This document shows, piece by piece, positions 24,742 through 24,813 of a stretch of 35,879 nt of DNA (position 1 is the stretch's first letter; each line of letters begins with the position of its first letter). A program made the position numbers and the translations under genes. Source of the DNA: a virus. Where the stretch lies: the IMG/VR virus record IMGVR_UViG_3300032308_000359, positions 1-35,879 of that record; one strand, given 5' to 3'. The notes beneath the pieces are model-generated. The model was not told the origin of the DNA. It did not search any database and was given only the letters and a program-made list of their open reading frames with translations.

Positions 24742-24813
24742 TTACTTATTCATTACATACATTGTTACTTCAAAGCCAAATCTCATTTCTGTTGCTGATG
24801 GTTTAGTCCACAT
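24742..24813 (-). CDS. pqqA: PqqA, precursor peptide of pyrroloquinoline quinone
   Basis: This 23-codon gene encodes a PqqA peptide: it begins MWTKP and continues with the core RFGFEVTMY, followed by a short end VMNK. Glu15 and Tyr19 are spaced E-x-x-x-Y, exactly the two residues that are cross-linked and become PQQ, and length and position match bacterial PqqA (23-24 residues). A strong ribosome site AGGAG lies 7 bases before the ATG. It is the last gene of the leftward block, 84 bases after the SSB-like gene and just before a terminator. Known biology: PqqE (radical SAM) with PqqD joins Glu to Tyr, and PqqF/G, B and C finish the cofactor. None of those genes is in the window, so the host must supply them. 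Confidence 0.9.
   Translation of the reverse strand: [23 protein letters not shown]

Follow-up and report, generated by a model that had tools for sequence, protein, structure and literature searches.

A viral DNA of 35,879 nucleotides (IMG/VR record IMGVR_UViG_3300032308_000359; this whole stretch is called the window below) encodes a 23-residue PQQ precursor peptide, PqqA, and similar frames recur in viral contigs that point to several unrelated phage lineages, including cultured phages of methylotrophs. We consider it very likely that the window holds a genuine PqqA in a self-contained, host-like cassette, probably activated by the host, that boosts the supply of PQQ or keeps it up. This reading draws on the identity of the peptide, the purifying selection that acts on it, a wide, host-linked distribution, the processing enzymes, which the host family has and the phages lack, and an operator shared with the hosts.

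The pqqA frame and its surroundings in the window

The pqqA frame occupies positions 24742 to 24813 on the minus strand (23 codons and the stop TAA), exactly where the earlier note had placed a 23-residue frame with Glu15 and Tyr19. The profile comparison proposed there places the peptide far over the cut-offs of both PqqA models, with 43.3 bits for PF08042 (E = 3.2e-11; cut-off, 21.1) and 40 bits for TIGR02107 (E = 2.3e-10; cut-off, 20), and no family other than PqqA was matched in the profile search. The reacting residues form E15-VTM-Y19, that is, a Glu and a Tyr with three residues between them (E-x3-Y), and the peptide of phage Venkman is identical to that of the window. Judged by its sequence, the frame is a genuine full-length PqqA; a chance open reading frame was ruled out, since both profiles score well above cut-off and cultured phages encode the identical peptide. 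A Shine-Dalgarno sequence, AGGAG (24820 to 24824, minus strand), stands 6 bases ahead of the ATG, one base closer than the 7 first given for it, and similar sequences precede all 166 of the 166 viral pqqA frames examined.

The contig that carries this frame also encodes the small and large terminase subunits, a portal, a protease, a primosomal protein, and an endolysin. The best match to its large terminase (TerL) comes from Methylophilaceae phage P19250A, at 95% identity (the next best is at ~32%), and a comparison of P19250A with the first 25 kb of the window aligned 51% at 82% identity. The isolation host of P19250A is Methylophilaceae bacterium IMCC19250, and because P19250A grew on this strain we infer a Methylophilaceae host for the window virus as well. 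Two glycosyltransferase genes are present on the plus strand; one (22649 to 23695) belongs to PHROG 13126 (beta-1,4-glycosyltransferase) and the other (31397 to 32614) to PHROG 842 (beta-glucosyl-HMC-alpha-glucosyltransferase), the latter a hint that this 36-kb phage may have modified, glycosylated DNA.

Upstream of pqqA lies a leftward run of minus-strand genes that encode an Erf-like single-strand annealing protein (25946 to 26488; PHROG 2324, E = 5e-50), a recombination exonuclease (25129 to 25767; PHROG 149, E = 7e-41), and a 76-residue SSB-like protein (24897 to 25127). The last of these belongs to a PHROG of unknown function, and the name SSB-like is suggested by its position beside the exonuclease and Erf genes and by its DSAMPF tail. 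Downstream of pqqA is a strong intrinsic terminator (24693 to 24712, minus strand; fold z, -3.1), whose 7-pair stem (AAGGGGC..GCCCCTT) leads into a run of T residues, and beyond it a convergent 70-residue open reading frame (24477 to 24689, plus strand), recognized as a conserved neighbor by comparison with relatives. The earlier note had regarded pqqA as the end of the recombination operon; it does lie downstream of the Erf, exonuclease, and SSB-like genes, but it is probably not merely the last gene of that operon, since the interval that separates it from the SSB-like frame holds its own candidate operator and promoter. Its features are those of a self-contained cassette, not of a member of the recombination operon.

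The order of SSB-like gene, pqqA, and convergent 70-residue frame is common to P19250A and three related records, G016, G017 (98% TerL identity), and G021 (94%). An HNH/endonuclease VII-like gene on the other side (24107 to 24484, plus strand; PHROG 3322, E = 4e-38) is kept beside pqqA in the same four genomes and might be able to mobilize the cassette. The scan of related phages suggested in the earlier note finds the frame retained in close relatives, together with Glu15 and Tyr19. In G024 and G025 (80% TerL identity) and G029 (75%) pqqA is found elsewhere or on the opposite strand relative to the SSB-like gene, and it is absent from G026, G028, G033, G036, and G040 (61 to 79%), whose records reach recombination or replication genes. 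Since these five do without it, pqqA is dispensable in part of the group.

Distribution and selection among viruses

Viral contigs with pqqA were gathered by DNA patterns. In a phage collection of 50,697 records, only 12 match: Venkman, P19250A, MEP301, MEP401, MEP402, four Melnitz isolates, a Manatee Spring metagenomic podovirus, and two contigs filed as Acinetobacter phages. The hosts of Venkman, P19250A, MEP301, MEP401/402, and Melnitz all belong to the Methylophilaceae/Methylophilales, a statement about cultured methylophages that covers the matches in this collection, carries no denominator, and leaves out MEP431 to MEP434, HIM624-A, and a second Venkman isolate. In the isolate genomes, pqqA is either unannotated or hidden beneath an antisense "hypothetical protein"; deposited hypothetical proteins lie antisense over the true pqqA at 4961 to 5056 in a Melnitz record and at 2067 to 2195 in the Manatee Spring podovirus. 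A gene of 72 bases escapes annotation, and a text search of the publications that describe MEP301, MEP401/402, Venkman, and Melnitz found no mention of PqqA, even where other metabolic genes of the isolates are listed.

In IMG/VR, each of two patterns retrieved at least 120 viral contigs, and among the matches listed for the first pattern all are short PqqA frames with a stop codon. Grouping the viral stretches by shared proteins gave 47 groups (of 80, 23, 16, and 4 members and many singles), a number inflated by fragments; together with the different families seen among portal, tail fiber, and DNA polymerase genes, these groups point to the presence of pqqA in several unrelated phage lineages. 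Divergent PqqA peptides on six viral contigs (L025, L004, L013, L018, L024, and L028), the first of which also carries a portal gene, suggest phages of PQQ producers outside the Methylophilaceae.

The proposal that nothing but the substrate gene comes from the phage agrees well with these records. PqqE was found over cut-off in 0 of the 49 viral records with pqqA that were searched, so that, as far as gene content can tell, these phages supply the PqqA substrate only and would depend on host enzymes. A PQQ alcohol dehydrogenase occurs in 1 of the 49, a 72-kb contig (L043/G049) that combines it with pqqA, much like a published Lake Baikal virus.

Bacterial contamination of the viral contigs, in which case pqqA would not be a phage gene at all, has one record to recommend it: the 144-kb CAKLQF020000010.1, one of the two contigs filed as Acinetobacter phages, carries pqqABCDE and ppk, looks bacterial, and probably represents bacterial DNA in the phage collection. 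As a general explanation we give contamination a negligible probability; the window contig has terminase, portal, and other phage genes, none of the 49 records encodes PqqE, and the several cultured phage genomes that carry pqqA refute it. The gene stands in a bona fide viral genome (terminase, portal, and lysis genes lie on the window contig, and several cultured isolates also carry pqqA), as a viral auxiliary metabolic gene should; it also has a metabolic homologue in the host and is under purifying selection.

The strength of that selection can be gauged from the second pattern, which covers codons 1 to 14 only and so leaves Glu15 and Tyr19 unforced. Among the matches listed for this pattern (120 of at least 120 contigs), all 120 have 23 codons, Glu15, and Tyr19. 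In codons 15 to 23, outside the pattern, these matches show a pN/pS of 0.11 and a pairwise identity of 83%, compared with 30% in the 27 bases past the stop. In another set, made up mostly of first-pattern matches, pN/pS among the matches listed is 0.25 for codons 2 to 12 and 0.19 for codons 20 to 23. The ratios of 0.11 to 0.25 are far from the value near one that the earlier note had named as evidence against a functional gene, and the loss of Glu15 or Tyr19 in close relatives, which would have told against it in the same way, is not seen: both residues and the frame are kept. Phage and host peptide lists also overlap, the two commonest peptides being identical in both. This strong constraint and the overlap argue for a phage PqqA that is made and used, rather than a decoy free to change.

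Two alternative explanations bear directly on these figures. Under the first, a decoy or competitor such as the earlier note had raised, the phage peptide would occupy PqqD/PqqE and thereby lower host PQQ, slowing methanol oxidation or redirecting radical-SAM chemistry. A substrate analogue encoded by a phage could indeed compete for these proteins, but a decoy would gain by losing its reacting residues, and yet Glu15 and Tyr19 are invariant among the 120 matches listed and phage peptides equal host peptides; because of both features the phage peptides should be converted normally, and the decoy loses ground to the point of being very unlikely. Under the second, pqqA is a recent passenger, acquired from the host or another phage and of no benefit to its carrier. 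The cassette does move, as indicated by a 76-base segment that is 93% identical in DNA to a phage unlike the window virus elsewhere and by its changed position or orientation in relatives of the window virus, but a passenger accords poorly with strong selection across many unrelated phages and with the retention of pqqA in small genomes of ~35 to 40 kb, and we regard this explanation as having only a slim chance.

A candidate operator shared with the hosts

A comparison of the sequences upstream of host and phage pqqA genes revealed an inverted repeat with the consensus TCATGA-N3-TCATGA. Between positions -165 and -100, 100 of the 126 host pqqA upstream sequences match it at 9 or more of 12 positions (12 are perfect), whereas ~17 of 126 do so in a shuffle control taken across the whole 220-base region. 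A scoring matrix trained on the host pqqA upstream sites alone reaches a score of at least 6 in 62% of viral pqqA upstream sequences, versus 3.4% at random positions and 2.1% in intergenic regions elsewhere, an enrichment measured on the very sequences, host and phage, that first showed the consensus, the palindrome having been chosen after both were seen and the matrix trained without the phages. Sites are present in P19250A (at the same place as in the window), Melnitz, Venkman, MEP301, and the Manatee phage; the ~38% of viral copies that have no clear operator include MEP401.

In the window, the candidate activator operator TAATGATTTTCTTGA (24885 to 24899, minus strand) lies 86 bases ahead of the pqqA start codon and overlaps the stop codon of the SSB-like frame. 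Its matrix score of 13.3 is the highest of the whole window (the next is 10.0), and it is one position off the strict pattern TMAKGA-W3-TCMTKA. The accompanying -10 is a weak match, AACAAT with a TG just before it (24857 to 24862, minus strand), placed as a candidate by its offset of 37 from the operator start, which is the commonest in phages. A sigma-70 scan upstream of the window pqqA called one site, against a mean of 3.8 in shuffles, and did not call AACAAT; a general TTGACA/TATAAT score of the viral pqqA upstream sequences is barely above shuffles, and no known RNA family covers the pqqA leader.

Of 111 host cases, 55 have a TATAAT-like -10 at a distance of 60 ± 1 bases from the start of the operator. 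In phages this distance is 37 ± 1 in 37 of 87, distributed over 12 groups, and a second class of phages has it at 60. The two spacings differ by 23 bases, close to two turns of the helix, which is what one would expect of an activator that works from the same face of the DNA. The spread of pqqA copies from phages to hosts was considered and found no support, the phage-type 37-base spacing not being among the frequent host offsets.

A count across 12 host genomes gives 37 occurrences of the strict pattern, versus 5 in a reversed control, and by coordinate comparison 23 of the 37 sites lie ~90 to 200 bases upstream of a host pqqA. Other sites are at pqqB, at a MoxJ-type gene, and at a gene pair for a SoxYZ-like carrier and a PqqU-like receptor. 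In the last case (L438, around position 1501), the operator separates two divergent genes, one for a SoxYZ-like quinoprotein carrier and the other for a TonB receptor that most resembles PqqU, which imports PQQ; the receptor match is below the curated cut-off, and its frame is cut by the end of the stretch. The arrangement hints that PQQ import and synthesis are under one regulator. Our reading of these data is that the palindrome is the operator of a host PQQ regulon and has been kept by the phages, and that the window pqqA is likely controlled via its candidate site. Extending this to the whole set, we think it reasonably probable that tailed phages of methylotrophs, though unrelated, have arrived by convergence at a substrate-only cassette of ~150 to 200 bases that copies the host PQQ-regulon promoter, often with the operator two helical turns nearer the -10, and supplies the PqqA to be consumed, leaving the rest to the sensor and enzymes of the host, and that the same operator defines a host regulon comprising pqqA copies, pqqB, MoxJ- and SoxYZ-type quinoprotein genes, and the PqqU-like receptor.

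A host-like operator that multiplies with the phage DNA could in principle also act as a sponge, titrating the host activator while the peptide rides along as a passenger. Such a role would leave the strong coding constraint (pN/pS of 0.11 among the matches listed) unexplained, and more than one-third of phage copies keep the peptide without a clear operator, which makes the sponge highly improbable.

The enzymes on which a phage PqqA would depend are common in the host family. In fourteen methylotroph genomes, picked via their pqqA, pqqA is present in 1 to 12 scattered copies; PqqE was found over cut-off in 13 of 14 and PqqC in 12 of 14, and PqqB was seen among the host PQQ genes. A host without any pqq genes, which would have counted against the proposal, is thus not what Methylophilaceae/Methylophilales-type genomes offer, the host of the window virus itself being assigned through P19250A. 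These observations fit an earlier report of 3 to 12 pqqA copies in Methylophilaceae, typically with a single set of the remaining pqq genes (PMC4109929). For a host that already has up to 12 copies, more PqqA may be unneeded.

Proposed role during infection and relation to known systems

It is established biochemistry that PqqD and PqqE crosslink PqqA and that PqqB and PqqC then complete PQQ. We propose that the phage cassette, composed of an activator site, a promoter, a ribosome site, the 23-codon frame, and a terminator, would probably be activated after injection by the host's own regulator of PQQ genes and so be transcribed. Host PqqD/PqqE would take the phage PqqA and crosslink Glu15 to Tyr19, and host PqqB/PqqC and peptidases would complete the cofactor. 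Because one PqqA is consumed per PQQ, the extra pqqA, multiplied with the phage genome, could keep or raise the PQQ available to the methanol dehydrogenases of the XoxF/Mxa type that sustain these hosts, to the presumed gain of the phage; these phages thus probably feed the host PQQ factory during infection. The importance of such dehydrogenases is illustrated by the OM43 isolate NB0046, in which xoxF is the most abundant transcript (PMC5120137).

The earlier note had left it undecided whether a phage pqqA had been described before. PqqA has been published in VP_266, a T4-like Methylophilaceae virus from Lake Baikal that also encodes a methanol dehydrogenase (Coutinho et al. 2020, PMC7678222), and pqqA has been listed among virus-encoded genes of a reservoir sediment (PMC13188868). 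VP_266 resembles the window in combining a phage PqqA, phages of Methylophilaceae, and a proposed support of methanol oxidation; it is T4-like and has a methanol dehydrogenase, whereas the window is a ~36-kb phage of the P19250A type with a lone pqqA and no dehydrogenase, as in nearly all the records examined here, and the parts of the Baikal account considered here describe neither an operator nor conservation across lineages (PMC7678222). What appears to be new, relative to the open-access literature, is the substrate-only form, the unannotated presence of pqqA in unrelated cultured methylophages, the degree of selective constraint, and the operator common to phages and hosts; no earlier description of an activator operator upstream of pqqA was found in that literature.

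The closest known arrangements are those of P19250A (KX815270; TerL identity, 95%), which has an unannotated pqqA and the operator at the same place, and of the hosts themselves. Host Methylophilaceae pqqA genes share the peptide, a stand-alone layout apart from pqqBCDE, and a related upstream operator (PMC4109929); they differ in that the window copy resides in a phage and in that most operator-bearing phage promoters have 37 rather than 60 bases to the -10. There is a looser analogy to another group of viruses and their hosts. Cyanophages carry psbA and other photosynthesis genes, whereby the phage supplies a turnover-limited part of the energy machinery of its host; those genes encode enzyme subunits, whereas pqqA would provide the consumed peptide precursor of a cofactor.

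Methanol oxidation by Methylophilaceae depends on PQQ and is an important one-carbon sink in lakes and coastal waters. Cultured phage-host pairs exist in which the proposed role can be approached (Venkman/H5P1, P19250A/IMCC19250, and MEP301/HTCC2181), and the shared operator offers a route to the regulator of PQQ synthesis in these hosts. If several kinds of phage add a precursor that is consumed in making the cofactor, then PQQ supply is likely to be a bottleneck of infection.
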